From Ignavibacteria bacterium (GTDB lineage Bacteria > Bacteroidota > Ignavibacteria > Ch128b), in assembly GCA_016873845.1 (NCBI GenBank), contig VGVX01000019.1:1-37737 (forward strand): a DNA stretch of 37,737 bases, in the 5' to 3' direction. Position numbers and translations under genes: made by a program. This document shows positions 20,587 through 35,855 of the stretch, in pieces (position 1 is the stretch's first letter; the number at the start of each line of letters is the position of its first letter). The notes beneath the pieces were generated by a model. It was given only the letters and a program-made list of their open reading frames with translations. It was not told where the DNA came from and did not search any database.

Positions 20587-22106
20587 GCGATAATATTAAA
20601 ATAAAACGTGCATTGATAAGTCTATCCGATAAAGAGAATTCTCTCGAATTGTGCACCGTTTTAGCAAAACATAATGTGGAAATTTATTCATCCGATGGGA
20701 CAAAAAGTTATTTGGAATTGAATGGACTCATTGTAAAATCTGTTTCAGACTTGACTGAGCTTCCTCCATTATTGAATGGGAGAGTCAAGACATTGCATCC
20801 ATTCATCCATGCTGCAATATTGGCTGATAAAAATTCGAGTCAACACAATAAAGAATTAAAAGAACTAAATCTTGAACCATTCGATTTAGTGGTCGTAAAT
20901 TTTTATCCATTTGAAAAAGTTATTAATGATGATTCAAGCAATGAGAATACAATTATAGAAAGAATTGATATTGGCGGACCGACTATGGTTAGGTCAGCAG
21001 CAAAAAATTTTCAAAATGTTGTTGTTCTTTCGGCTAAGGAGCAGTATTCAGCATTTATAACTGAGATTGAAGAAAACAATGGCTCAGTTTCTCTGAAAAC
21101 AAGACGGAAGTTTGCATCTGAAGCATTTCAACGAATCGCAGTTTACGATAATGCAATTTCAAGTTATTTCAATGGAGAGCGTGTTTTCAATCTAGCATAC
21201 CAAAAAGTTCAGGATTTACGTTATGGCGAGAATCAGCATCAGTCTTCGGCTTTATATGGAACTTTCTTTGAAAATTTTCAACAGATTCATGGAAAGGAAC
21301 TTTCATATAATAACATTCTCGATGTATGTGCCGCAGTTGATCTGATCGATGATCTTGAAGATTTTAGTTGTGTGATAATTAAACATAATAATCCTTGCGG
21401 TGCAGCAACAAGAACCAATGCATTCGATGCATACTCCGCGGCATTAAGTTGCGATCCGATTTCGGCTTTCGGTGGGATTGTTGCATTCAATAATCAAATT
21501 GATGAAGCAACTGCGCAGAAATTAAATGAGATATTTCTTGAAGTTATTATTTTACCAGTTGTTACTGAAGAAATTAAATCAATATTATATCTTAAAAAAG
21601 ATCGGCGCATTATTCTTTACAAAAAAAGTAAAGGACACGATTTGACTGAGTTCCGTTCTGTTCGGGGAGGAGTACTCGTTCAATCAAAAAATAATGTAAC
21701 TTATGAGAAAAATAAAATAAATATTGTAACTAAAAAAAAACCTTCTGAGAAGGAGATGAATGATTTGATATTTGCCTGGACACTTGTAAAGCACGTTAAA
21801 TCAAACGCAATAGTGTACGCGAAGAACAAGACAGCAATCGGAATAGGTGCCGGTCAAATGTCACGGATCGATTCAGCAAAAATTGCAAAAATGAAAGCCG
21901 AACAATTCAATCATGATACGCAAAATTGCGTTGTAGCTTCAGATGCTTTTTTCCCGTTTGCCGATGGTCTGGAAACAGCAATTTCAGTAGGTGCATCAGC
22001 TGTAATTCAGCCAGGTGGATCAGTAAGAGACCAAGAAGTAATTGAAGCTGCAAACAAAAAAAATATTTCAATGGTTTTTACAGATATACGTCATTTTAAA
22101 CATTAG
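20583..22106 (+). CDS. purH: Bifunctional AICAR formyltransferase / IMP cyclohydrolase
   Basis: Catalyses the last two steps of IMP synthesis. The N-terminal IMP cyclohydrolase domain (about 1-200) shows RALISLSDKE, GRVKTLHP and DIGGPTMVRSAAKN. The C-terminal formyltransferase domain has RYGENQHQ, IIKHNNPCGAA with the catalytic pair K267-H268, DPISAFGGIVAFN, and the terminal block PGGSVRDQEVIEAA ending in RHFKH. At 507 residues it is complete. No ATG lies near the conserved N-terminus; TTG 20583, within the TTGA overlap with purN, is the likely start. mreB follows after nine bases. Confidence 0.96.
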   Translation: MSDNIKIKRALISLSDKENSLELCTVLAKHNVEIYSSDGTKSYLELNGLIVKSVSDLTELPPLLNGRVKTLHPFIHAAILADKNSSQHNKELKELNLEPFDLVVVNFYPFEKVINDDSSNENTIIERIDIGGPTMVRSAAKNFQNVVVLSAKEQYSAFITEIEENNGSVSLKTRRKFASEAFQRIAVYDNAISSYFNGERVFNLAYQKVQDLRYGENQHQSSALYGTFFENFQQIHGKELSYNNILDVCAAVDLIDDLEDFSCVIIKHNNPCGAATRTNAFDAYSAALSCDPISAFGGIVAFNNQIDEATAQKLNEIFLEVIILPVVTEEIKSILYLKKDRRIILYKKSKGHDLTEFRSVRGGVLVQSKNNVTYEKNKINIVTKKKPSEKEMNDLIFAWTLVKHVKSNAIVYAKNKTAIGIGAGQMSRIDSAKIAKMKAEQFNHDTQNCVVASDAFFPFADGLETAISVGASAVIQPGGSVRDQEVIEAANKKNISMVFTDIRHFKH

Positions 22107-22115
22107 GAAATTGTA

Positions 22116-23141
22116 ATGGGATTTTTCAATATTCTATCATCTGACATAGCAATAGATTTAGGTACTGCCAATACTCTAATCTTCGTTCGAGGAAAGGGAA
22201 TTGTACTGAATGAACCTTCTATAGTCGCATTCGATCGGAATACAAAAAAAATAATTGCTGTAGGCAATAAGGCAAAAGAAATTCAGGGGAGAGAGCATCG
22301 GGAAATTCGTGTTACTCGTCCAATGCGTGATGGTGTAATAGCCGATTTCGAAATTGCTGAAGGAATGCTAAGAGCCTTTATTAAAATGATCCGCGGAGGT
22401 TTTTTTCCAAGCAGAAGAATTATCATTGCTGTACCAACAGGCATCACAGAAGTTGAAAAGCGAGCCGTTAGAGATTCAGCTGAACATGCTGGAGCGAAAG
22501 AAGTTCATCTAATTGCAGAACCAATGGCAGCTGCAATTGGAATCGGATGCGATGTAGAATCTCCAGTCGGAAATATGGTTATCGATATCGGAGGTGGAAC
22601 TACAGAAATCGCTGTAATAGCATTATCTGGAATTGTTAATGATGAATCAATTCGTGTCGCTGGAGATGAAATGAACAACTCAATCCAACAATTTTTTAAG
22701 AAAAATTACAATGTTTTAATTGGAGAGAGAACTGCCGAAATGATCAAGTGTCAAGTAGGTTCTGCTGCCCCCATGAAAGAAGAAGTTACAATACAAGTTA
22801 AAGGACGAGATTTAGTACAAGGAATCCCAACAGTTTGTGAAGTGAGCTCAGAGGAGATCAGAGAATCGTTGAGCGAACCCGTTAACCAAATAATCGAGGC
22901 AGTAAGGCAATCCCTCGAAAAAACTCCCCCAGAATTAAGTGCAGATATTATAGATAGAGGAATAATGCTGACAGGTGGAGGTGCACTCTTAAAAGGGCTC
23001 GACGAAAGAATCAGGATGGAAACAAATTTGCCAGTTCATGTAGTCGAAGATCCTCTATCAGCAGTTGTCCGTGGAGTGGGAAAAGTATTAGAGGACATGG
23101 ACAGATTCGAAAAAGTTATAATTAGAAGCAGAAGATATTAA
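22116..23141 (+). CDS. mreB: Rod shape-determining protein MreB (bacterial actin)
   Basis: An actin-like ATPase whose membrane-bound filaments guide the elongation machine along the cell width. The 341-residue protein has the phosphate-binding loop DLGTANT (14-20), the second loop VIDIGGGTTEIAV, AEPMAAAIGIG and the adenosine site MLTGGGALLKG. Length and motifs are canonical. It opens the mreBCD-mrdA-rodA order typical of rod-shaped Gram-negatives, so the organism is probably rod-shaped or curved. No ribosome binding site is visible before ATG 22116, and only nine bases separate it from purH. Confidence 0.98.
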   Translation: MGFFNILSSDIAIDLGTANTLIFVRGKGIVLNEPSIVAFDRNTKKIIAVGNKAKEIQGREHREIRVTRPMRDGVIADFEIAEGMLRAFIKMIRGGFFPSRRIIIAVPTGITEVEKRAVRDSAEHAGAKEVHLIAEPMAAAIGIGCDVESPVGNMVIDIGGGTTEIAVIALSGIVNDESIRVAGDEMNNSIQQFFKKNYNVLIGERTAEMIKCQVGSAAPMKEEVTIQVKGRDLVQGIPTVCEVSSEEIRESLSEPVNQIIEAVRQSLEKTPPELSADIIDRGIMLTGGGALLKGLDERIRMETNLPVHVVEDPLSAVVRGVGKVLEDMDRFEKVIIRSRRY

Positions 23142-23144
23142 AAA

Positions 23145-23975
23145 ATGTTACAGTGGTTAGCTAGGTTTATTAATGATTTCCGTCCTTATATTATTTTGTC
23201 AATACTTATTACCGCATCATTATTGCTGATCACATTCAATAAATCAACTCAATTAATATTTGTAAGACAAGTTTCCATCGGTTTTTTTGGTATTGCAAAA
23301 AGTATTTTACTCCCATTCGAACAAATTGTCACATTAAAAAAAGATGTTGAAGATCTTCAGAGAGTAAATTCTAACTTGATCTCTGAGCTTAACTCTCTAC
23401 GTGCATCTCGTGAAGAAGCTATTGAACTAAGGAAACTTTTAAGATTCAAGGAAGAGAATAAACTCACTTTTATTCCCGCAAAAATTTTATCAAAAATTTC
23501 ATCAACAGCAAAAAATAGATTCATTATTGATGCAGGAAAAAATTCCGGGATACTAATTAATTCTCCCGTTTTTACAGATGCTGGTGTTGTCGGAATTGTA
23601 GATTTAGTATCTGATGATGAGTCTATCGTTCAAACTTTGAACAATCTGGAGTTGAATATCAGTGTTCAAAGTTCGAGATCTAAAACTTTAGGAATACTCA
23701 AATGGAATGGAAAGAGATTCACAATTACGAATATCTCTAAGTCTGCTGATGTGAAGGAGAGAGATATATTTTACACTTCGCAGTACAGCACGATTTTTCC
23801 ACCTGATATTCCAATTGCATATGTGAAGAGAGTCATTTACGAGGGTGGCGAGAGTTTTTTTGATATAGAAGCTGAAACTACAGTCGATGTTGACAATATT
23901 AGAAATGTTCTTCTCCCACAGAATCCTGATTTACTTAAAAAACAGAAGTTAAATTTTTTGCTTGATGTAGAGTGA
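23145..23975 (+). CDS. mreC: Rod shape-determining protein MreC
   Basis: A periplasmic scaffold that activates PBP2-RodA. The 276-residue protein has one transmembrane helix at about residues 15-32, a coiled coil around 65-100 (VTLKKDVEDLQRVNSNLISE) and the two-barrel beta domain with the family pattern FIIDAGKNSGI, VVGIVDLVSDDESIVQ and a second barrel to about residue 255. It starts three bases after mreB; its end overlaps mreD by four bases (GTGA). Confidence 0.94.
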   Translation: MLQWLARFINDFRPYIILSILITASLLLITFNKSTQLIFVRQVSIGFFGIAKSILLPFEQIVTLKKDVEDLQRVNSNLISELNSLRASREEAIELRKLLRFKEENKLTFIPAKILSKISSTAKNRFIIDAGKNSGILINSPVFTDAGVVGIVDLVSDDESIVQTLNNLELNISVQSSRSKTLGILKWNGKRFTITNISKSADVKERDIFYTSQYSTIFPPDIPIAYVKRVIYEGGESFFDIEAETTVDVDNIRNVLLPQNPDLLKKQKLNFLLDVE

Positions 23976-24463
23976 TAAAAATTTATTTAAAGTGGTTTGC
24001 AATTTTCGTTTTATTGATTTTATTGCAAAGCACAGTTCTGGATTATTTTTTGATTTATGGACACAAGCCGGATCTCGTACTTATCGCTCTAGTTTTTTTA
24101 ACACTTACGTATGGTCAAGTTACCGGGATTCTTGTTGCCTTCTTTGCTGGATTAACTCTTGATTTGTTTGTTGGAGGAGTGCTCGGAGCATCTTCATTGT
24201 CAAAAGTTATTGCTATTTTTATCTGTGGATATTTTTATAACGAAAATAAGGTTGATATTGTCTTAAGAAATTATACATTTATTGTAATAGTTCTCCTAAT
24301 TTCTTTCGTTGAGAATTTAATTCATTCTTTAATTGTATTTTCAATCGATATTCCAACATTGTTTAGGATAATATTTTCGTATGGATTATATCCGGCTCTA
24401 TATACTACGTTGGTAAGCAGTATCGTTTTACTAAGACCAGGAAAAAAGCTTTTTAAAACATGA
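23972..24463 (+). CDS. mreD: Rod shape-determining membrane protein MreD
   Basis: An integral membrane subunit of the elongasome. The 163-residue protein is almost entirely hydrophobic with five to six membrane segments. It has the family pattern FLIYGHKPDLVLIAL, then GILVAFFAGLTLDLFVGG. The start is GTG at 23972, overlapping the mreC stop; its own stop overlaps the mrdA ATG (ATGA). The sequence is poorly conserved across phyla, so the assignment leans on gene order as well as topology. Confidence 0.9.
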   Translation: MIKIYLKWFAIFVLLILLQSTVLDYFLIYGHKPDLVLIALVFLTLTYGQVTGILVAFFAGLTLDLFVGGVLGASSLSKVIAIFICGYFYNENKVDIVLRNYTFIVIVLLISFVENLIHSLIVFSIDIPTLFRIIFSYGLYPALYTTLVSSIVLLRPGKKLFKT

Positions 24464-26259
24464 CATTTATAGATTTAAATTCTGAGACAAGAATGAAAGT
24501 TGTTACAATCGTCATTGTAACAATCTTCCTTTTCCTCGGTTTTCGATTGTATCAGCTTCAAGTTGTCGATTGGGAAAAATATGCCGTTGCATCAGAAAAG
24601 AATGCAGTTAAAGAAAAAATAATTGAACCCTTTAGAGGAGTCTTTTATGATAGGAATTGGAATCTTCTTGTAGATAATCAGCCCTCGTACACACTTCGCA
24701 TAACACCAAAGGAATTCGATAAGAGTTTAATCCCGTTGATCGAAGGTTACTTTAAATTTCCAAAAGGATATATGGCAAATGTTCTTCGGGCTAATCGAAG
24801 TTACTCTCCGTTTATCCCAATAAAAATTTTACGTGGATTAACTTTTAAACAAATTAGCTGGTTGGAAGAAAATGCCACACAGTTACTTGGTGTTGATTAT
24901 ACAATAGATATGGAAAGGATATATCCATTCGGTGTATCAGTTTCGCATTTGTTTGGTTACTGTAAAGAAATCTCTGATAAGCAGCTGAAGGAAAATCAAG
25001 AGTATTATTTACCTGGCGACTTTGTTGGTCACAATGGTCTAGAAAAATTTTATGAAGAATATCTTAGAGGCTTAAAAGGCAAGAGATTCGTTTTTATTGA
25101 TGCACATGGGAGAGAGATAAGTCGAGTTAACGAAGGGAACAACGATATCATTCCTCAACAGGGATATCACGCTCAACTCTCAATCGACGGCAATCTTCAG
25201 AAAAAAGCCGAAGAATTGATGCTGGATAAGCAAGGAGCTATTGTAATACTCGATCCACGAAACGGAGAGATACTTTCGTTTCTAAGCAAACCAGATTTTA
25301 ATCTGAAAAATTTCTCAGGTGTGACACCTGTGAAAGTATGGAGGCAATTGAATAATGACAATTCTCGTCCTCTTTTTAATCGAGCTACTAGTTCAATATA
25401 TCCACCTGGATCGTGTTATAAAATGTTGTCTGCCATTGGAGCTTTACAAGATAAAGTGATTACTGAGTCTTACACTTATAATTGCGGGGCAGGATTCTCT
25501 TATGGAAATCACTTCTATAAATGTATGGGAGTACATGGTTCGGTAAATGTGAAAACTGCAATTGAAAAGTCCTGTAATACGTTTTTTTTCAGTCTCATTT
25601 TAAAGATGGGTTTTGAAAGATGGACTAAATATGGAGATATGTTTGGATTTGGTAAAAAGACTAATATTGACATACTTGAAGATACCAAAGGAATATTGCC
25701 TTCGGTTGATTATTACAACAAAATATACGGTGTTAAAAAATGGACGCCTGGCTACATAGTAAGTCTTGGTGTTGGGCAGGGAGAATTAGGTGTGACACCA
25801 TTGCAAATGGCTTCATATATTTCGGCGATCGCAAACGGTGGAACATTGTATCGTCCTCATGCTGTGAAAAAATTTTTCAATCCTGCTGCAAAAGAAAAGG
25901 AAATCATAATTAAGGTCGAAGGAAAGAAACTTCCAATTGACAAAGCTGTAATGGATATAGTTCGTGAAGGGACATTTTTAGTTGTAAATGGAGCTGGAAC
26001 TGCTGGTATGGTAAGGATTGATGGCATCCATGTTGCGGGTAAAACTGGAACTGCACAAAATCCGCATGGCAATGATCACTCGTGGTTTGTGGGTTATGCA
26101 CCATACGAAAATCCTCAGATTGCAATTGCAATTATTGTAGAAAATGCAGGATTCGGCGGTACTGTCGCTGCACCAATTGGAAAGCAGCTAATAGAATTTT
26201 ATTTAAAGAAAGAAAAAGGAAGTGGCGTTATTTTCGCAGCAAATAAAACTGAAGAGTGA
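24460..26259 (+). CDS. mrdA: Penicillin-binding protein 2, elongation-specific transpeptidase
   Basis: A class B DD-transpeptidase that works with RodA to build the lateral wall. The 599-residue protein has one transmembrane helix (about 14-30), a PBP dimer domain ([18 protein letters not shown]), and the transpeptidase domain with SxxK as PPGSCYKM (S318, K321), SCN as the second motif, and KTGTAQ (K528). The residues SCYK instead of the common STFK are unusual but keep Ser and Lys. The 3' end overlaps rodA by 38 bases if rodA starts at GTG 26222. Confidence 0.96.
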
Positions 26260-27490
26260 AGATAAAGTTGAAATTCCAATTTCTGAGAAATTTGATTTTC
26301 TACTTGTATTTGCAGCACTTGGATTGATTTTGATCGGTATAATTTCAATCTATAGTGCTACAGTAAATTTTGAATCGAACCAGGTAAATTTTCAAAAACA
26401 AATTATTGTCACAGTTGCAAGCTTAGTAGTTTTTCTAATTGTTTATTTTTTTCCTATGAAGTATTTTCAATTACTTTCATTCCCTTCCTATGTATTGTCG
26501 ATTTTGTTTTTAGTCGCAGTGTTAGTTATTGGGAAAACAATCTCAGGTTCGAAAAGTTGGATACCTTTAGGTTTTTTAGATTTTCAGCCCTCTGAAGTTG
26601 CAAAGATTGCATTAGTCCTAGCTCTTGCTAATTATATGTCTATGCGAAATGTGAACATTAATTCTCCAAGACATTTCTTAATTGCTGTTATAATGGTCAT
26701 AGTTCCATTCGTTTTGATTTTAAAACAACCAGATTTAGGTACTGCATTAGTTTTTATATCAATATTTTTTGTTGGAATATTTTGGCAGGGACTCTCAGCA
26801 TTTGCAATGTTCGTAATTGTCAGTCCGATTATTGTTGGTCTCTCTTCGATTTTCAGTATTATCCCAGCAATAATCTTGCTAGCTTTTGTAATCGCGGCAC
26901 TCTACTTTTTTAAGAGAGATTTTTTTGTATCAACCGGTGTATTCATTTTAAATTTGAGTGCAATCTTTTTTGTTGATTATGCACTAAGAATTTTATCCCC
27001 ACACCAAATAAAACGAATTCAAACATTTCTTGATCCGGCAAGTGATCCGCTCGGAAGCGGATATAATGCTATCCAAGCAAAAGTCGCAGTCGGATCCGGG
27101 GGTTTCTTCGGTAAAGGGTTTTTGTCAGGCAGCCAAACACAGTTGAAATTTATCCCTGAACAGTGGACTGATTTCATTTTTTGCGTAATAGGTGAAGAAT
27201 TTGGTTTCATTGGAGCAATTTTTACTCTTTTGCTTTTTATGATATTAATTTTTAGAATGATTCGAATTGCAAAGTTGAGCAAATCAGATTTTAGAAGTAA
27301 TGTTACAATAATGTTTATTGCAATATTCATGACGCATATATTTATAAATATCGGCATGTCAATTGGACTGGTCCCGGTAATCGGAATTCCGCTTCCACTA
27401 GTGAGTTATGGTGGAAGCGCTCTTTTGACTAACATGATAATGATTGCAACAGTTATGAATTTTTACAAAAATCGAACCAGTTATTCTTGA
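26222..27490 (+). CDS. rodA: Peptidoglycan glycosyltransferase RodA (SEDS family)
   Basis: A polytopic SEDS polymerase that extends glycan strands from lipid II with PBP2. The 422-residue protein has about ten membrane segments and the family blocks [18 protein letters not shown] and [12 protein letters not shown]. The region [21 protein letters not shown] carries the essential aspartate (D275), and the end shows [15 protein letters not shown]. No ATG is near the N-terminus; GTG 26222, inside mrdA, is the best available start but is uncertain by a few tens of residues. This is the last gene of the long purN-to-rodA group; no hairpin terminator follows. Confidence 0.95.
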
Positions 27491-27564
27491 ATTTTCTTAA
27501 ATGTTTTTTTTATATTACAACTAATTAAAATAAATCGATAATATTAATCATTGTGAGGTTATAG

Positions 27565-30405
27565 ATGAAAAAAATCTTCACATGTTTCTTGTTTGTTACT
27601 ATTATTTTGATCCAGAATGGATTTGCTGGCAATACAGGAAAAATTGCCGGTAAAGTTATCGATTCTGACACCAAGGAACCAATCCCATTTGCAAATGTAA
27701 TTATTAATGGCACTTCACTCGGTGCGGCTACAAACCTTTCAGGAGAATTTGTAATTTTAAATGTTCCTCCGGGAGTACATACAGTCACAGCATCCGTTGT
27801 TGGCTATATGAAAAAATCAATTCGCGACGTGAGAGTGAATGTTGATTTTACAACTCGATTGGAATTCACTCTATCACAAGGTTCAATTGATCTGCCTGCA
27901 GTAGTTGTTCAAGGTGAAAGAAATCCATTGATAAGGCAGGACTTAACTAATCCAATTGCTTCAATCACTGATGAGACAATTGGTGAACTCCCGGTCGATC
28001 AAATTAATGATGTTATTAAATTACAAGCCGGAGTTGTGGTCGGTAATGATGGTGACATTCATATTCGTGGCGGTTTAGGGAATGAAATCGCATTCAATTT
28101 AAATGGCGTTACTCTCAATGATCCATACGGCAACCGAAGATCAGTTGGGCTCGCAACAAATGCAGTTCAAGAAGTTTCAGTTTCCAGTGGAACTTTTAGT
28201 GCCGAGTATGGAAATGCTTTAAGCGGAGTAGTGAATTACGTTACAAAGGAAGGTCCACAAAGATACACTGCAAGCATCAAAGCTTACGGCGGCGATTATC
28301 TCTCATCACGGAAAGAATTATTTACAAATATTGATGAGATCGATCCATTTAACCGTGCAAGAACAGAAGTTACGCTCGGAGGACCGTTTCCATTTCTGCC
28401 GAATAATTTTTCGTTCTTTCTTTCTTCGGTTTATGAGAGTTTTAAAGGATCGCTCTATGGTGTGAGATTATACAATCCAACAGATTCATATCTCGAAAGA
28501 AATAATTTCAGCTCATCCGATTCGAGATATGGCGCATCAACCACAAGTTATTTCTTTAATCCTTATTCAAAAGATTCTACCGGAATGCCATCTGGTGATG
28601 GAGCAATTGTTCCAATGAACTGGTCAAAGTCATTTAATTTTCAAGGCAACTTAGTTTACAAACCACTTTCAACTTTAAAATTCAGATATGAACTTGTGCT
28701 TGATAACGGAAAATCTCAAGATTATGAACGTGCATATAAATTTAATCCTGACGGCAGGGGAACAAATTACAGCAGTGGTTATATTAATTCTTTTGGAGTG
28801 ACACACACAGTATCAAATAATTTATTTTATAATTTAAAAGCATCGTTTGGAGTTAATGAATATAAATCGTACTTGTACGAAAATCCGCTTGATCCACGAT
28901 ATTTGCCATCTCTCTATGCCCGCGGAATTGGGAATACCGGATTTCTTGCTGGCGGCACTGATAGAAGCAGATTCAATAGAAAGACAGAGACAATTGGTAT
29001 TAAAGGAGATTTAGTCGCACAACTATTAAATGTGCATGAAGTTAAATTTGGATTTGAAATTAGGAAACACAAATTGAACGTAGAAAGTTTTTCAACTCAA
29101 GTTGGATATATTAATTCGTTTGGTGATTTTACTACGTTCAATCCCACTGATCTTTTATATGATTCGTTAAATATTGTACAGAAAATTCCAACGGATACTT
29201 CACTCTATACGGCTTATGCAAGAGAGCCATTCCAGGCTGCAGTATATTTGTTGGATAAAATAGAACTTGCCTCTTCTATGATTCTCAATGTTGGTTTACG
29301 ATACGAATATTTTGATCCTGCTGCGCAGTACAATCCATATGTCAGCAGGGATTTAAGTGATCTGAAAGCAGGTGCGATCACTCCAGGGATCGCCGATGCA
29401 TTACCGAAACACCGATTGAGTCCGCGCTTTAGTGTCTCGTATCCAATAACAGACGCTGGTGTGATCAGATTTTCTTATGGGCATTTTTATCAAGTCCCGT
29501 CATTGGCAAGTCTTTATTCAAATCCGAATTTTTATGTGGCGAACTTTGGCGAGAATCCGACTTTCGGTAATCCGAATGTTGAACCGCAAAGAAGTGTTCA
29601 ATACGAACTTGGACTTCAGCAGCTTTTAATGGAAGATCTCGGATTGAATGTGACAGGATTTTATAAAGATGTTAGCAATTACATTTATACTCAGCAAATT
29701 TTTACACCTGAAGGAAGAGGATTCTATCTTCTGACTAATCTTGCTTATTCAAACAGTAAAGGTGTCACAGTATCGTTATTAAAGCGAAGATCTCCAGGAG
29801 ACCTTTTCTCTGCAACACTTGATTATACATTTTCGCTTGCGGAAGGAAACAGAACTTATCCTTCTGATGAAATTTTCTTTAGCGAACAATCTGGGAAACA
29901 GTCTGAGACTTACCTTGTTCCATTTAGTTTCGATAGAAGTCATGTGATCAATGCAACTGTCGCATTCACAAAACAAAATGATTGGACTGCATCATTGATT
30001 GGTTATATGCAAACCGGGACTCCCTATACGCCGGTCTTCCCTTCCAATATAGTTGATATTACATTCGAGCAAGGAAGCGGAAGACAACCGATTCAATGGA
30101 ATGTTGATCTTAAACTTGAAAAATTCTTCATGCTTGGTAATTTGAAATTCTCGTTATTCTGCCAAGTCGAAAATCTATTCGATACGGAAAATGAATTATT
30201 TGTTTATGCGTCATCAGGAAGATCGAGATCCAATATTGAAGAAAAAGATATCCCCATAGTTTTTTCAGATATTATTAAGAGGATAAAACGTGGTGATGCA
30301 GGTCTAATGCCTCTGAACGAAATAGAAGAATATTATTCACTAAGACCTGAGAGAGTCAATCGACCTCGTGAAATTAGGGTTGGATTCTCGTTAATCTTTA
30401 ATTAG
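27565..30405 (+). CDS. TonB-dependent outer-membrane receptor with carboxypeptidase-regulatory domain
   Basis: An outer-membrane barrel driven by TonB. The 946-residue protein has a signal peptide (1-21), a CarboxypepD_reg-like beta domain (about 25-105; KIAGKVIDSDTKEPIPFANV), a possible TonB-box stretch DLPAVVVQ (109-116), a plug domain (about 125-230) with IHIRGGLGNEIAFNLNGV and FSAEYGNALSGVVNYVTKEG, then the barrel ending in RVGFSLIFN with a terminal aromatic-X-Asn. GAGGT at 27555-27559 supports ATG 27565. No SusD partner follows; the next genes are a giant exported protein and a PorV-like protein. The ligand is unknown. It may serve as a secretion-linked receptor rather than a nutrient importer. 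Confidence 0.92.
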   Translation: MKKIFTCFLFVTIILIQNGFAGNTGKIAGKVIDSDTKEPIPFANVIINGTSLGAATNLSGEFVILNVPPGVHTVTASVVGYMKKSIRDVRVNVDFTTRLEFTLSQGSIDLPAVVVQGERNPLIRQDLTNPIASITDETIGELPVDQINDVIKLQAGVVVGNDGDIHIRGGLGNEIAFNLNGVTLNDPYGNRRSVGLATNAVQEVSVSSGTFSAEYGNALSGVVNYVTKEGPQRYTASIKAYGGDYLSSRKELFTNIDEIDPFNRARTEVTLGGPFPFLPNNFSFFLSSVYESFKGSLYGVRLYNPTDSYLERNNFSSSDSRYGASTTSYFFNPYSKDSTGMPSGDGAIVPMNWSKSFNFQGNLVYKPLSTLKFRYELVLDNGKSQDYERAYKFNPDGRGTNYSSGYINSFGVTHTVSNNLFYNLKASFGVNEYKSYLYENPLDPRYLPSLYARGIGNTGFLAGGTDRSRFNRKTETIGIKGDLVAQLLNVHEVKFGFEIRKHKLNVESFSTQVGYINSFGDFTTFNPTDLLYDSLNIVQKIPTDTSLYTAYAREPFQAAVYLLDKIELASSMILNVGLRYEYFDPAAQYNPYVSRDLSDLKAGAITPGIADALPKHRLSPRFSVSYPITDAGVIRFSYGHFYQVPSLASLYSNPNFYVANFGENPTFGNPNVEPQRSVQYELGLQQLLMEDLGLNVTGFYKDVSNYIYTQQIFTPEGRGFYLLTNLAYSNSKGVTVSLLKRRSPGDLFSATLDYTFSLAEGNRTYPSDEIFFSEQSGKQSETYLVPFSFDRSHVINATVAFTKQNDWTASLIGYMQTGTPYTPVFPSNIVDITFEQGSGRQPIQWNVDLKLEKFFMLGNLKFSLFCQVENLFDTENELFVYASSGRSRSNIEEKDIPIVFSDIIKRIKRGDAGLMPLNEIEEYYSLRPERVNRPREIRVGFSLIFN

Positions 30406-30423
30406 AGTTTTAGGAGAAAGTTG

Positions 30424-33400
30424 ATGAAATCAAAAATTGTTTTTTTAATCTCGGCTTTATTGATCATATCTGCGAATTTATTTTCCCAGAAGAAAGATAA
30501 ATACGGCTATTACATCATAAAGGAATTAACCGAGGAAGAAGCACTTCGCATTTATGGCAAGCCTGCCGATGCATTGCAGAAATCTCTCGGCAATAAAAAC
30601 ATTATCAAAGAATCTATAATTCAAGGAAATAAAGTCAAAACGGTTTTATTCAATTACGGTTCTATTTGTGCCCCAAATTATCTCGGAAATGTGGCAGACT
30701 TGGTTTGGAATAATCTCGGTTACGGATTTGAATTCGGCCCGCTAGCAGCCGGTGAAGTTGTTTCTACTTACACAGATACACTTGGAAATACAAAAACAGA
30801 TACACTGCGGATCGTAGACGATTCTTTTATTCGATTCAGTCCATTGCAGGGAGATTATAATCCAGCAGGCACCATAAAATGGGGATGGCTGCCTAAGGAT
30901 GGATACGTCGATCCTTCACAAAAAGAAATCTCTAGATTGAATGCAACAGATAATAATGGTGACGGCAAACCCGATAGCTGGCCTGAAGGTTGGTATAATT
31001 CTGGGGCTGGAAAATATTTGTGGCCTGCGTTCCTTGGTGATCAAGCTACTGCACCAGACGAAGAAGTTTATTTTGTCTTAGATGATTTTACAAATGCAGA
31101 ATTTCCGTATTATCCATTTCCAGATGATGCAACAAAAAGAGGTCTCGGATTGGATATGGAAGTTCGTGTACTTCAATTTAATAATCCACTCGCTGAAGAT
31201 ATTATTTTCTTAGTTTACCAGACGACGAATGTGAGTCCAAAGACTTTGCCAAGAGTTTATTTTGGTATGCATGGTGATCCACACGTTGGAGGTCCTGGTG
31301 ACTATGGTGATGATAGAGCGTTTTTTATTCCATCTCTTGGATCACTTGCTGATCCGTATCCTCAACGAGCGAGAAGCATGGTTTATGCTTGGGATGATGA
31401 TATGAAAGGTGATGGTGGAAGAAAAGCCGGTTACTTCGGATGGAAATTCCTTGAAAGTCCAAGTAAACATTCAGATGCTAAAGATAATGATGATGATGGT
31501 ATTACAGATGAAAGTCCATTCAACGATGCAGGATTTTACATTGATGGAGTAGCTTATCCATTAACTACTGGAATAACCGATGTTGCAAAGTACACAGCGA
31601 CTTATGGGGCTCCAAAACCTCGCTGGTCTGGAGACGAAGATGGTGATTGGGACCCTGCAAGAGACGATGTTGGCGTTGATGGAATTGGTCCAGATTCACC
31701 AAATTATCCAGGTGCAGATTATGGCGAGGGAGATGGCAAACCAACACAAGCATGGTATTTAGATCTAAATGACAATGGAAGATACGATGCTGGTGAAACA
31801 ATTTCTGAAATTAGAATTGCTGGTTATAAATGGCTCGGTTCTGAAACTAATTTTGGATTAAGAGATATCTCTGAATCTGATCAAATAGGTTTAACAAGCT
31901 TCCATGCGGTGACTTATACTAATACATTTCCTAACGTTCCAGCAAATGATCCGCTAATGTGGGAATGGTTATCGAGTGATTCAATTGACGTCAATCAAGA
32001 ATTATTGAATGAACCAGGTGATAATATTTTTAATTTTGGCACTGGTCCCTTCAGACTTGAATCAGGTGAAACACAAAGATTCTCAATGTGCATTTTGTTT
32101 GGAGAAAATTTAAACGATTTAGTTTTGAACGCAGAAACATCAACAAGAATTGTTGAAGCGGATTACAGATTCGCACAGCCGCCTGCAAAACCGATTGTAA
32201 CAGCAGTTCCGGGAAATAAGCAAGTTACACTTTATTGGGATACTCGCGCAGAGGAATCGCTTGATCCACTTACTCAATTAAAAGATTTTCAGGGTTACAA
32301 AATTTACCGCAGCCAAGATCCTAAATTTGCAGATGTGTTCAAGATCACAGACGGTAATGGCGTTCCATTTCTTGGTGAAGCATTATTCGATCCGAACAAG
32401 AGCAAATATGCTCAATTCGATTTAAACGATTCTCTGTCAGGATTCCATCCTGTTGAATACGCCGGAAGAGGTGTCAAGTATTTTCTTGGCACAAACACGG
32501 GTTTAGTTCACGAGTATGTTGATTCAACAGTTCTTAACGGAGTAAAATATTATTACGCAATAGTGTCTTATGATGGCGGTTCACTTTTACCCGGTAAAGA
32601 ACTTCCACCAACTGAAAGTCAAGCTGTAATTATTCAAGATCCTATAACAGGCGAATTAAGGTTCGAATCAAATACATTAGAGATTATTCCCGGTCCTCCC
32701 ACAGATGGCACAATTTCTGCGGGTCTTGCAGCCAACGTAAAAAGAGAAAAAGGAATATCGACTGGTAAAATAAATTTAAAGGTTTATGATAGTAAAACAG
32801 TTAGAGACCAAAGTGAATTTCAGGTTCAATTTACCGATTCACTTGCATATGATGTTCTCAATTATACTGGTGTGACAGATAAATTTATTTCGAAGGATAC
32901 AGTATTTGTAAACTTATCAAATAAAAACATAGTATTGAGCAGCGTAATTGTAAAAGATGCTTCAGGCAATGTTGTTCCTCAATCAAAGTATAGTGTGAGT
33001 TCTTTAACGGGAAAGATCAAAGGAAATGCAAAGAACGATCTGCCAACAGGCCAAACGTTCACTATCTCTTATCAGTACTATCCCGTTTATCAAAGTAAAT
33101 TTGTAAAGGGAGAAGATGGTAATTCTTCATTTGATGGATTAAGAATTTTTGTTACTAAGGATACTCTGGGAGTGGATAGAAAAAATTCTGGCTGGCTTCC
33201 TGGAAGAGCTAATAATTTTAAGGATTCAATTCTTTGGGTTCCAAGAACTGTTAGTGGTTCAGCACCTCATCTTCCGACTGATTTAGATTTCAAGCTTGAA
33301 TTTACTAGTATGGACACAACTGCCGATGGTAAATTTGTCATTCCAGGCGACACGGTTTTATCTCAACCGATAAATCGACCGCTCATTTGTCCATTCAAAA

Positions 33401-34020
33401 TAACGATTACTACAGCAGATACAATGCTTGGGAGAAAAGCTGACTATTTTATTTTTGAGGGAATTGCATCCACACGGAATAACAACAAATGGGACCCAGG
33501 TGAAAATATCATTTTCTTTCCAAGAGTTCGATCAGGAATCAGAACTGCTTATCAAATCGATTTTAATTTACCGAGTACTGGTACAACACCAATCTATCCT
33601 AAAGCCGGTGATACTTATGTCTTGAGAACAACGAAACCATTTAAGAAGGGGGATATTTATTCATTTAAGACTAAAGGTGAAACGTATGATAAGACAACTG
33701 CAAAGGCCGCTTTATCCGATGTTTATGTAGTACCTAATCCATACATTGCGTTCTCCGAAGCGGAAGAGCCAGCGAAACTTCCTAATCGGCGTGGTGAACA
33801 GCAGCTTCAATTCAGGAATCTTCCGCGTGAATGTACTGTGCGTATCTACACAATTACAGGTGAATTAGTTGAAACGCTTAATAAGAATGATGACTCAAGC
33901 ATACTTGGTTGGAATTTACTAACATACGAGGGACAACGAATCGCGTATGGCGTTTACATCTATCATGTCGATGCACCAGGAATAGGTGAAAAAATTGGCA
34001 GATTTGCAGTCATTAAATAG
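30424..34020 (+). CDS. Giant exported protein with Fn3-like domain and T9SS-like C-terminal domain
   Basis: A 1198-residue protein with a signal peptide (about 1-21, ending NLFSQ). Acidic calcium-loop-like stretches occur in the first half: DNNGDGKPD (from 176), DNDDDGITDE (354), GDEDGDWDPARDD (404) and DLNDNGRYDAGE (447). A fibronectin type III-like domain starts near 586 (AVPGNKQVTLYWD, GYKIYRSQD). The last 98 residues, from VVPNPYIAF, end in the pattern VRIYTITGELV, AYGVYIYHV, GRFAVIK, as in type IX sorting domains. The rest I do not recognise. AGGAG at 30412-30416 selects ATG 30424 over the TTG just before. It is probably moved to the cell surface with the PorV-like protein encoded next. 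Confidence 0.82.
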   Translation: MKSKIVFLISALLIISANLFSQKKDKYGYYIIKELTEEEALRIYGKPADALQKSLGNKNIIKESIIQGNKVKTVLFNYGSICAPNYLGNVADLVWNNLGYGFEFGPLAAGEVVSTYTDTLGNTKTDTLRIVDDSFIRFSPLQGDYNPAGTIKWGWLPKDGYVDPSQKEISRLNATDNNGDGKPDSWPEGWYNSGAGKYLWPAFLGDQATAPDEEVYFVLDDFTNAEFPYYPFPDDATKRGLGLDMEVRVLQFNNPLAEDIIFLVYQTTNVSPKTLPRVYFGMHGDPHVGGPGDYGDDRAFFIPSLGSLADPYPQRARSMVYAWDDDMKGDGGRKAGYFGWKFLESPSKHSDAKDNDDDGITDESPFNDAGFYIDGVAYPLTTGITDVAKYTATYGAPKPRWSGDEDGDWDPARDDVGVDGIGPDSPNYPGADYGEGDGKPTQAWYLDLNDNGRYDAGETISEIRIAGYKWLGSETNFGLRDISESDQIGLTSFHAVTYTNTFPNVPANDPLMWEWLSSDSIDVNQELLNEPGDNIFNFGTGPFRLESGETQRFSMCILFGENLNDLVLNAETSTRIVEADYRFAQPPAKPIVTAVPGNKQVTLYWDTRAEESLDPLTQLKDFQGYKIYRSQDPKFADVFKITDGNGVPFLGEALFDPNKSKYAQFDLNDSLSGFHPVEYAGRGVKYFLGTNTGLVHEYVDSTVLNGVKYYYAIVSYDGGSLLPGKELPPTESQAVIIQDPITGELRFESNTLEIIPGPPTDGTISAGLAANVKREKGISTGKINLKVYDSKTVRDQSEFQVQFTDSLAYDVLNYTGVTDKFISKDTVFVNLSNKNIVLSSVIVKDASGNVVPQSKYSVSSLTGKIKGNAKNDLPTGQTFTISYQYYPVYQSKFVKGEDGNSSFDGLRIFVTKDTLGVDRKNSGWLPGRANNFKDSILWVPRTVSGSAPHLPTDLDFKLEFTSMDTTADGKFVIPGDTVLSQPINRPLICPFKITITTADTMLGRKADYFIFEGIASTRNNNKWDPGENIIFFPRVRSGIRTAYQIDFNLPSTGTTPIYPKAGDTYVLRTTKPFKKGDIYSFKTKGETYDKTTAKAALSDVYVVPNPYIAFSEAEEPAKLPNRRGEQQLQFRNLPRECTVRIYTITGELVETLNKNDDSSILGWNLLTYEGQRIAYGVYIYHVDAPGIGEKIGRFAVIK

Positions 34021-34051
34021 ATTTTGAAATAAAACTCTTTGGAGATATAAA

Positions 34052-35086
34052 ATGAAGAAAAAAGTTTTAATAACTCTGCTTCTATTAATTGGCATTGGAA
34101 GTAATTATTCCAATGCTCAGCTCGATAGGAGCACAACCAAAGTTGCAACAACTGCAGCTCAATTTCTGAAAATAGGTGCAGGCGCTCGTGCAATCGGAAT
34201 GGCTGGTGCATTTTCTGCTATGGAAAATGATATTTATTCTATTTATTGGAATCCTGCCGGTGTATCAAGAATTTATGGTACAGGTGCAGTCGCTTTCAAT
34301 CACGCAAACTGGCTTGCAGATATGGCTTATGATTTTGCAGCATTAACGATCAATATCGGAGATCTCGGAACGCTTGGATTTAGTTTTACATCATTCAGAG
34401 TACCTGAGGATAAAGTCCGTACGTTTGAAAATCCCGAGGGAGATGGAAGAGTTTGGGATGCAAGCTCGCTTGCTCTTGGTTTGACCTATGCAAGAAATCT
34501 TACAGATAACTTCTCTATTGGATTCACTGCAAAATATATTCGTGAAGCAATATGGAATATGTCTGCTAATACATTTGCGATAGATGTCGGGACGATGTAC
34601 ACGACTCCGTTCAACGGGTTGAAAATCGGTGCAAGCATCACCAACTTTGGTACAAAGATGCGGCTCGATGGGAGAGATATTTACATTAATGTTGATCCAA
34701 ACTCAAATCCAAACTCCGGTGCGAACAATGTGCCTGCAGAGTACAGAATGAATTACTATGACATTCCATTGACCTTTAGGATCGGTTTGGGAATGGATAT
34801 TATTCGAACTAATTTATTCACAGCGACTGCGGCTATTGATGCAGTTCATCCAAACGATAATACTGAATATGTTAACTCCGGTATCGAATTCAATTTTAAT
34901 AGAATGATCTTTGCACGAATCGGTTATAAATCACTGTTTATGCGCGACAGTGAACAAGGATTAACATTCGGATTCGGTGTTTCATATCCAATCGTAAACG
35001 ATATTGGATTGTCCTTCAATTATGGTTATGCTGACTTTAATAGATTGAAAAATGTGCAATTTTTTGATCTGACGATACAATTCTAA
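34052..35086 (+). CDS. porV: PorV/PorQ-family outer-membrane protein
   Basis: A 344-residue FadL-like beta-barrel of the PorV family; in T9SS, PorV shuttles cargo from the translocon to the attachment complex. The signal peptide ends about residue 22 (NYSNA). The family block follows: TAAQFLKIGAGARAIGMAGA, then YSIYWNPAGVSRI and FNHANWLADMAYDFAA, and the protein ends in an outer-membrane-like LTIQF. GGAG at 34041-34044 supports the start. It is third after the TonB receptor and the giant exported protein, so a dedicated role for that cargo is likely. Several paralogues are common in these genomes, so the symbol is tentative. Confidence 0.85.
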   Translation: MKKKVLITLLLLIGIGSNYSNAQLDRSTTKVATTAAQFLKIGAGARAIGMAGAFSAMENDIYSIYWNPAGVSRIYGTGAVAFNHANWLADMAYDFAALTINIGDLGTLGFSFTSFRVPEDKVRTFENPEGDGRVWDASSLALGLTYARNLTDNFSIGFTAKYIREAIWNMSANTFAIDVGTMYTTPFNGLKIGASITNFGTKMRLDGRDIYINVDPNSNPNSGANNVPAEYRMNYYDIPLTFRIGLGMDIIRTNLFTATAAIDAVHPNDNTEYVNSGIEFNFNRMIFARIGYKSLFMRDSEQGLTFGFGVSYPIVNDIGLSFNYGYADFNRLKNVQFFDLTIQF

Positions 35087-35105: not shown

Positions 35106-35153
35106 AATGCCCAACTTTGTTTTTGAAATAAAATGAAAAAGTTGGGCATTTTT
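35106..35153 (+). terminator. Terminator of the TonB receptor-porV group, overlapping the next gene start
   Basis: A 13-pair perfect stem AATGCCCAACTTT (35106-35118) with AAAGTTGGGCATT (35138-35150), a 19-base loop, and T at 35149-35153. It lies 20 bases after the porV stop. The loop is long for a terminator. The ATG of the following gene (35133) lies in the loop and its first codons form the 3' arm. Confidence 0.75.
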
Positions 35154-35855
35154 GTTTTAAAGGTTAATTCAAGACTTTTAGAACATTTCGGAAAACCAAA
35201 ACGTAAGCTTGATTCTAAGCCACTCGATATTCTCATTGCAACGATTTTATCTCAAAACACATCCGACAAGAATTCGCTTAAAGCTTATCATAACCTTCGA
35301 AAGAAATTTCCTGCTTGGGCGGATATTAAAAAAGCATCTATCTCACAGCTTGCAAGAACTATTCGAATTGCTGGTTTGAGTAGGCAAAAAGCTAAGACAA
35401 TTAAAGAGTTATTTAAGTGGCTCGTAAACATAAATCAACATTACTCGTTAGGATTTCTCAACGATTTATCTAACGAAGAAGTACTTTCTGAGTTAACAAA
35501 GCTTCAAGGAATTGGCGTAAAGACTGCATCTTGTGTACTTTTATTTGGAATGCAAAGGAACGTTTGCCCTGTTGATACACATGTATTTCGTACTGTAAAC
35601 AGAATTGGTATAGTAAGTGGATCAACCCCTGAAAAAACTTTTTATGCTTTGGACAAAATTTTACCCTACGGTATTGCACACGAATTCCATACGAATTTAA
35701 TTATTTTAGGCCGTACGATTTGCAAACCAAAAAAACCTGAATGTTTCAACTGTCCCTTGGTCAAATTATGCAACTTTAAAAAGAAAAATCTCACTTCCGA
35801 TTTCTCTTCGGCGTCGAACAGAAGGAATGATATTATTCTGTTGGATGCAATATAA
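35133..35855 (+). CDS. nth: Endonuclease III-like DNA glycosylase/AP lyase
   Basis: An HhH-GPD base-excision repair enzyme that removes oxidised pyrimidines and cleaves the abasic site. The 240-residue protein has the helix-hairpin-helix LQGIGVKTASCVLL with catalytic K130, the aspartate D148 in PVDTHVFR, and the iron-sulfur loop C197-x6-C204-x2-C207-x5-C213. The opening motif LSQNTSDKNS differs from the E. coli enzyme's LSAQATD and is seen in a divergent Nth-like subfamily. The ATG at 35133 lies in the loop of a terminator hairpin without a ribosome binding site. Alternative starts are few, TTG 35142 being one, and the conserved core begins about residue 20. Confidence 0.88.
   Translation: MKKLGIFVLKVNSRLLEHFGKPKRKLDSKPLDILIATILSQNTSDKNSLKAYHNLRKKFPAWADIKKASISQLARTIRIAGLSRQKAKTIKELFKWLVNINQHYSLGFLNDLSNEEVLSELTKLQGIGVKTASCVLLFGMQRNVCPVDTHVFRTVNRIGIVSGSTPEKTFYALDKILPYGIAHEFHTNLIILGRTICKPKKPECFNCPLVKLCNFKKKNLTSDFSSASNRRNDIILLDAI

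Follow-up and report, generated by a model that had tools for sequence, protein, structure and literature searches.

Our analysis concerns a 37,737-nucleotide stretch of DNA from an Ignavibacteria bacterium (assembly GCA_016873845.1, contig VGVX01000019.1; hereafter the window), and specifically three genes at positions 27565-35086, all on the + strand and with intergenic spacing of 15-31 nt. They encode a TonB-dependent receptor (T), a large exported surface protein (E) and an outer-membrane barrel of the PorV/PorQ family (V), and are laid out as follows:

27565..30405, + strand: T, TonB-dependent receptor, 946 amino acids (PF13715, PF07715 and PF00593 above the Pfam cut-off)
30424..34020, + strand: E, exported surface protein, 1198 amino acids (no Pfam family above cut-off)
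30589..32199, + strand: N-terminal module of E, residues 56-592, a predicted beta-supersandwich (AlphaFold2 (AF2), Foldseek, invariant residues)
32200..32628, + strand: fibronectin type III (FnIII)-like domain of E, residues 593-735 (sequence pattern and modelled strands; boundaries approximate)
33703..34017, + strand: C-terminal domain (CTD) of E, residues 1094-1198, a PorZ/PorU-like variant of the type A CTD of the type IX secretion system (T9SS) (PDB, NCBIfam, HHalign)
34052..35086, + strand: V, PorV/PorQ-family outer-membrane barrel, 344 amino acids (NF033709; PorV in the PDB)
35106..35157, + strand: terminator-like hairpin and T-rich tail at the end of the unit (fold dG -19.5 kcal/mol, z -3.6)

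Because E alone served as the query in our locus searches, the linkage to T and V is not built into the sample. Relatives of E (E-value <=1e-10) are present in 229 of the 245 genomes and 125 of the 129 genera of the class, and almost all of forty loci from diverse families of the class have the order T-E-V. When GTDB genomes were scanned with an E alignment, more than 560 encoding stretches were returned, and the 78 loci kept belong to Ignavibacteria, Melioribacteraceae, Rhodothermales, Neomarinimicrobiota, Calditrichota, KSB1 and Delongbacteria. T lies directly upstream and V directly downstream of 120 of 131 E genes (112 of 123 non-redundant ones), with median gaps of 14.5 nt between T and E and 11.5 nt between E and V; the exceptions are mostly contig ends or split open reading frames (ORFs), with one real variant, E-T-E-V, in locus L093. 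The genome of the window itself holds three paralogous copies of the trio in the same gene order (the window copy, C15 and C8), which are 36-41% identical in T (41% and 36% for the window T against its two paralogues), 32-39% in E and 44-49% in V.

The three partners also appear to have travelled together. Tree distances of E correlate with those of T (r=0.93) and of V (r=0.77), and for both E-V and E-T the true pairing ranks top among all 768 within-genome swaps in eight genomes that carry more than one triplet (two or three each), a design that keeps species identity constant. At the level of sequence, this shows joint inheritance, which is needed for physical pairing and is no proof of it. 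Chance adjacency of T, E and V is rejected by the 112/123 contiguity and the best-of-768 pairing; with about seven PorV-family genes per genome, a TonB-dependent receptor and a PorV-family gene should flank E at random very rarely. An earlier note on this DNA had proposed that the three genes form a self-contained unit, and the recurrence count bears this out, the three genes being far from rarely together; what it missed is that the unit is very widespread, that its own genome holds three copies, and that some subtypes are linked to starch or glucan. Literature searches on the T-E-V trio found no description. The trio is a genuine, conserved and apparently undescribed unit. Tandem T-E-V pairs occur in L094, L095, L151, L173, L179 and L187, and together with the E-T-E-V arrangement of L093 they suggest duplication.

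T consists of CarboxypepD_reg-like, Plug and TonB-dependent barrel domains, each above its Pfam cut-off, and a VVVQGER stretch ahead of the plug resembles a TonB box. The CarboxypepD_reg-like domain is an Ig-like extension with a structural role in Bacteroidota TonB-dependent receptors, and no STN (signalling) domain is among the Pfam matches at E-value <=0.1. We therefore rejected T as a signalling receptor: the "regulatory" domain on which the earlier note had based a sensing role is regulatory only in name, and that role is unsupported. Against the SusC/RagA model TIGR04056, T scores 59 bits, far under the subfamily cut-off of 368. The same note had described a receptor without a SusD partner, which holds both for the locus, where no SusD gene is adjacent, and for the whole genome, in which no SusD (PF07980) was found.

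V reaches 210 bits with the PorV-family model NF033709 (cut-off 90), as expected from its previous assignment to this family, and its only PDB match is PorV (6h3i chain F, E-value 1.5e-13). It stays under the equivalog cut-offs of the PorV and PorQ models (86.5 vs 250 bits for NF033710, 69.8 vs 220 for NF033711) and matches BamG weakly (23 bits, cut-off 250). The core of the T9SS, absence of which from the genome would, by the earlier note, have refuted the module, is present: SprA scores 1008 bits, PorU 1007.5 bits, and a canonical PorV, encoded immediately behind PorU, 257.1 bits (above the equivalog cut-off). Since the canonical PorV adjoins PorU, V is an additional member of the family. 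Seven PorV-family genes in this genome score above cut-off, namely the canonical PorV, the three V genes of the triplets, and one each on C17, C9 and C93. Of 45 genomes tested, 44 have SprA, genomes lacking E among them; SprA may thus be a requirement for the unit and is not sufficient.

Two of the remaining PorV-family genes have surroundings of their own. The gene on C17 sits near a half-size relative of E, in a looser cluster (L018/L194, about 20947-31184) that comprises this 656-aa E-like protein, a 707-aa T9SS protein, a 536-aa lipoprotein-like protein, a 937-aa TonB receptor and the PorV-family gene, and that may represent the unit in a reduced or ancestral state. On C9 (L195:7775-11288), tandem PorV-family genes, one of which is the gene above cut-off, lie directly behind a 521-aa CTD protein without a TonB receptor; the CTD protein is likely a further cargo with dedicated barrels.

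The ORF of E can start at a TTG at 30421 (1199 aa) or at the ATG at 30424 (1198 aa). Its N terminus, MKSKIVFLISALLIISANLFSQ, reads as signal-peptide-like, and no lipobox cysteine follows the signal peptide in the sequence. No Pfam family scores above cut-off and there is no SusD match; E is a member of an undescribed protein family. In Foldseek, the full-length AF2 model (pLDDT 81.8, pTM 0.70) returned mainly FnIII and Ig-chain matches with template modelling (TM) scores <0.15, so that the informative result came only from a separate model of the N-terminal module (112 sequences, pLDDT 93.1, pTM 0.91). The best PDB matches of the module are dextran dextrinase, GH94 phosphorylases, GH116, a PL26 lyase and the YidC periplasmic domain, with probability up to 1.00 and TM about 0.3. 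A supersandwich domain is the element common to these matches, and on that ground the predicted fold of the module is galactose-mutarotase/supersandwich-like, with large decorations. Such a modelled fold favours sugar binding by E, without proving it. The module also contains invariant Asp/Glu-rich loops (DNDxDG, DESDQIGL), with D354, D356, D362, E363, D404, D415, D419, D432, E435, D481, E484 and D486 as the invariant acidic residues of E, which suggests putative calcium sites. Behind it, an FnIII-like pattern (KPxVTAVPGDGKVTLYWD...GYKIYRS...YYYAVVAYD) can be recognised, and Pfam fn3 has no match in the window copy. We also considered E as a disguised SusD and rejected this, as there is no SusD match and the predicted fold differs.

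The other end of E bears on how the protein is handled at the surface. With the TIGR04183/PF18962 sorting domain, E C-termini score 15.3-17.7 bits against a cut-off of 23, the window copy giving a sub-threshold 15.3 bits with TIGR04183. Profile comparison shows homology between the CTD and canonical type A CTDs (HHalign 95.7%), and the sole match of the E profile among solved structures is the PorZ CTD. For a CTD-only profile of 55 members, the top PDB matches are PorZ (5m11, E-value 0.0041) and PorU (6za2, E-value 0.04), and the NCBIfam models for PorZ, PorU and TIGR04183 match 52, 48 and 40 of the 55 CTDs, respectively, at E-value <=0.1. What had been noticed as a sorting-like C-terminus on an exported 1198-residue protein is thus, by profiles, a homologue of type A and of PorZ/PorU CTDs. 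A longer segment ahead of the GVY motif is common to E CTDs, PorU and PorZ and missing from short canonical CTDs; because it also occurs in some further T9SS proteins here, and because mutants showed no functional relevance of the matching hairpin (PMC11285876), it is consistent with PorU/PorZ kinship and says no more than that.

The CTDs of PorU and PorZ are retained, bound to PorV and PorQ, respectively (PMC10202324, PMC11285876, PMC5562754). PorQ is the anchor of PorZ (PMC5562754), and a review proposes that cognate PorV-like barrels shield CTDs against cleavage (PMC10202324). The PorZ/PorU-like CTD of E, as judged from its sequence, suggests permanent holding of E by V, and V is therefore likely to be also a permanent holder of E. 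In the earlier note V delivered E to the surface, and on this point the note was right. A dedicated PorV-like partner and T9SS genes are indeed present, but in view of the PorZ/PorU-like CTD the task of V probably goes further, with delivery making up one half of it.

Taken together, we consider it probable that the trio is a SusCD-like outer-membrane acquisition unit, in which a T9SS surface partner is held by its own PorV/PorQ-like barrel. E, synthesised with its Sec signal peptide and T9SS CTD, would be exported via SprA, and V, as a dedicated barrel of the PorV/PorQ family, would receive it from the translocon and keep it at the surface through the uncleaved CTD, in the manner of PorQ with PorZ. 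Once displayed, E would use the sugar-enzyme-like N-terminal module, with probable calcium loops, to capture a ligand and present it to T, which would import the E-bound ligand with TonB energy, so that E would play a role for T comparable to that of SusD for SusC. The unit, its conservation, the cognate pairing, the T9SS genes, the CTD kinship, the fold prediction and the gene context were computed directly, and we infer complex formation, CTD retention, cooperation between E and T, the ligand and transport.

Gene context gives some indication of what the ligand could be. Four related subtypes of the E tree, 19 triplets in all, are found in sugar loci, where the close neighbours include LacI (9), CBM20 (6), a MalK-type ATPase (4), GH31 (3), alpha-amylase (3), GH77 (2) and GH94 (2); in L085, for example, the order is LacI-T-E-V-secreted T9SS alpha-amylase. 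In the subtypes linked to amylase, GH31, MalK, GH77 or GH94, an alpha- or beta-glucan is the probable ligand. The C8 triplet belongs to one of the four, subtype 7, other members of which carry a GH31/MalK/CBM20 context. Elsewhere the neighbours differ: the window subtype (32 triplets) is accompanied by FG-GAP T9SS proteins, an HhH-GPD gene and phosphomannomutase, and in the Rhodothermales/Marinimicrobia subtype a T9SS protein carrying an Amidase_2 domain is encoded downstream. Given these differing neighbour genes, the ligand probably varies between subtypes. In subtype 3 (L139, L143, L168 and others), a T9SS-type protein family lies directly behind V in 14 triplets. The post-V protein of L139, the member tested, has an N-acetylmuramoyl-L-alanine amidase domain, and so the ligand of this subtype may be peptidoglycan-derived.

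Around the window copy, the upstream neighbour of the trio is a RodA/FtsW-type gene (26222-27490) and the downstream neighbour an HhH-GPD DNA-repair gene (35133-35855), which follows V in 12-13 of the 32 window-type loci. The terminator that had been placed after V is supported by an RNAfold hairpin, AATGCCCAACTTT...AAAGTTGGGCATT, at 35106-35150, followed by a T-rich stretch. The nominal ATG of the HhH-GPD ORF (35133) falls within this hairpin, and the real start of that gene probably lies further downstream. A promoter scan at the locus gave no more matches than in shuffled sequence. A T9SS protein with FG-GAP repeats and a length of about 620 aa (L016:13197-15053 and relatives) adjoins triplets of the window, C15 and Rhodothermales subtypes, with 41 cases in the sample.

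Several observations weigh against an acquisition unit of this kind. The T9SS motor, GldL/GldM (PorL/PorM), is unrecognised in this genome: the GldM model has no match, and the GldL model gives at most 18.7 bits here and in ten further genomes from the class or phylum, while four reference genomes of the phylum that are positive give 190-256 bits. The motor of this T9SS may be a different one or may have diverged strongly. The matches of the E CTD to PorZ and PorU are weak and lie under the full-model cut-offs, the TM scores of the N-terminal module are low, and the YidC periplasmic domain, which is no importer, has the same fold. No glycan gene lies near the window copy, no sugar-degrading enzyme is among the 25 commonest neighbour families of its subtype, and the immediate neighbours of the C8 triplet include no sugar enzyme; for these copies a glycan role is thus extrapolated. 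Nor do E and SusD exclude each other. SusD is present in 57 of the 245 genomes of the class, and the family richest in SusD copies, f24, has no E at all. Across 297 genomes of the phylum, E occurs in 110, SusD in 153 and both in 53 (Fisher p=0.40), and strict mutual exclusion is not upheld. Copy numbers, by contrast, speak for such a unit: SusD carriers have a median of 5 SusD candidates with E and 14.5 without, and SusD copies are also fewer with E within family f41 (p=1.4e-5), in statistics that ignore phylogeny.

These findings could be explained in three other ways. V might act as a delivery shuttle only, with PorU removing the CTD and E being released or attached to glycolipid, and T might be a co-regulated receptor that does not touch E. 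PorU is present in the genome, canonical type A cargo travels by PorV and PorU (PMC10202324), and the E CTD is homologous to the CTDs of such cargo. However, the genome already has a canonical PorV, which would make a dedicated barrel per cargo superfluous; the CTD matches the remainder of E in conservation (mean pairwise identity 0.51 vs 0.48 for the N-terminal module) and is nearest to uncleaved CTDs; and linkage and cognate pairing with T are near-invariable. We therefore regard this explanation as unlikely. It is quite improbable, in our view, that E is a structural or adhesive protein held by V, with T as its scaffold or docking site and no import of an E-bound ligand. The FnIII-like and other beta domains would suit such a protein, as would the docking idea of the earlier note and the FG-GAP T9SS proteins, rather than enzymes, that neighbour the window subtype, but the plug and barrel of T are complete, with no sign of lost transport function, and four subtypes have LacI, amylase, MalK, GH31, GH77 or GH94 in their context.

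The PorV family is part of the FadL-like fold group, and paralogues are weakly matched by the FilD (OmpP1/FadL) model. V could on this basis be a transporter of hydrophobic compounds that is fed by E and T, which we consider highly improbable given the 210 bits with the PorV/PorQ family, PorV as the sole PDB match, and a partner that bears a T9SS CTD.

The acquisition unit that we favour shares features with several known systems. Like SusCD and RagAB, the trio pairs a TonB-dependent receptor with a surface partner from a neighbouring gene, whose ligand-binding role we infer in the case of E, and some subtypes are embedded in starch-utilisation loci with a secreted amylase. Here, however, the partner is of T9SS type, is 1043-1300 aa long, has a barrel of its own and is neither a SusD nor a lipoprotein, T is far under the SusC/RagA cut-off, and the genome of the window is without SusD. 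With PorZ-PorQ and PorU-PorV the trio has in common a CTD protein on a PorV/PorQ-family barrel, the E CTD being most similar to those of PorZ and PorU and E presumably being retained in the same way; it differs in including a TonB receptor, in having several paralogous copies in varied gene contexts, and in that E has no match to the PorZ propeller or the PorU peptidase domain. Type B cargo has a cognate PorP/SprF barrel gene directly downstream, which is required for secretion (PMC12618676) and anchorage (PMC9143113). The V gene likewise lies directly downstream of its cargo gene, whereas V is of the PorV/PorQ family, the E CTD is type A-like (TIGR04131 weakly in 1/55), and a TonB receptor lies upstream. 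Finally, in the Bacteroidota BAM (BamG-BamH) a FadL-like barrel holds a surface protein (PMC12611786), and V matches BamG weakly, but BamH is a lipoprotein and that system functions in membrane-protein assembly.

Thus, T-E-V looks like an undescribed parallel to SusCD glycan importers. More tentatively, and just short of an even chance in our estimate, it may be a second widespread glycan-import architecture beside SusCD, consisting of a TonB receptor and a T9SS-exported ligand-binding partner held permanently by a dedicated PorV/PorQ-type barrel, a shuttle turned into a fixed importer subunit. If so, bacteria of several phyla with few or no SusD genes would import surface-bound polymers through an importer built of T9SS components, and one of the commonest unannotated families of large surface proteins in Ignavibacteria and their relatives would gain a function. 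This would also account for the several PorV-family genes kept per genome, and would provide a natural test of the proposal that a CTD is shielded from cleavage by its cognate PorV-like barrel (PMC10202324).

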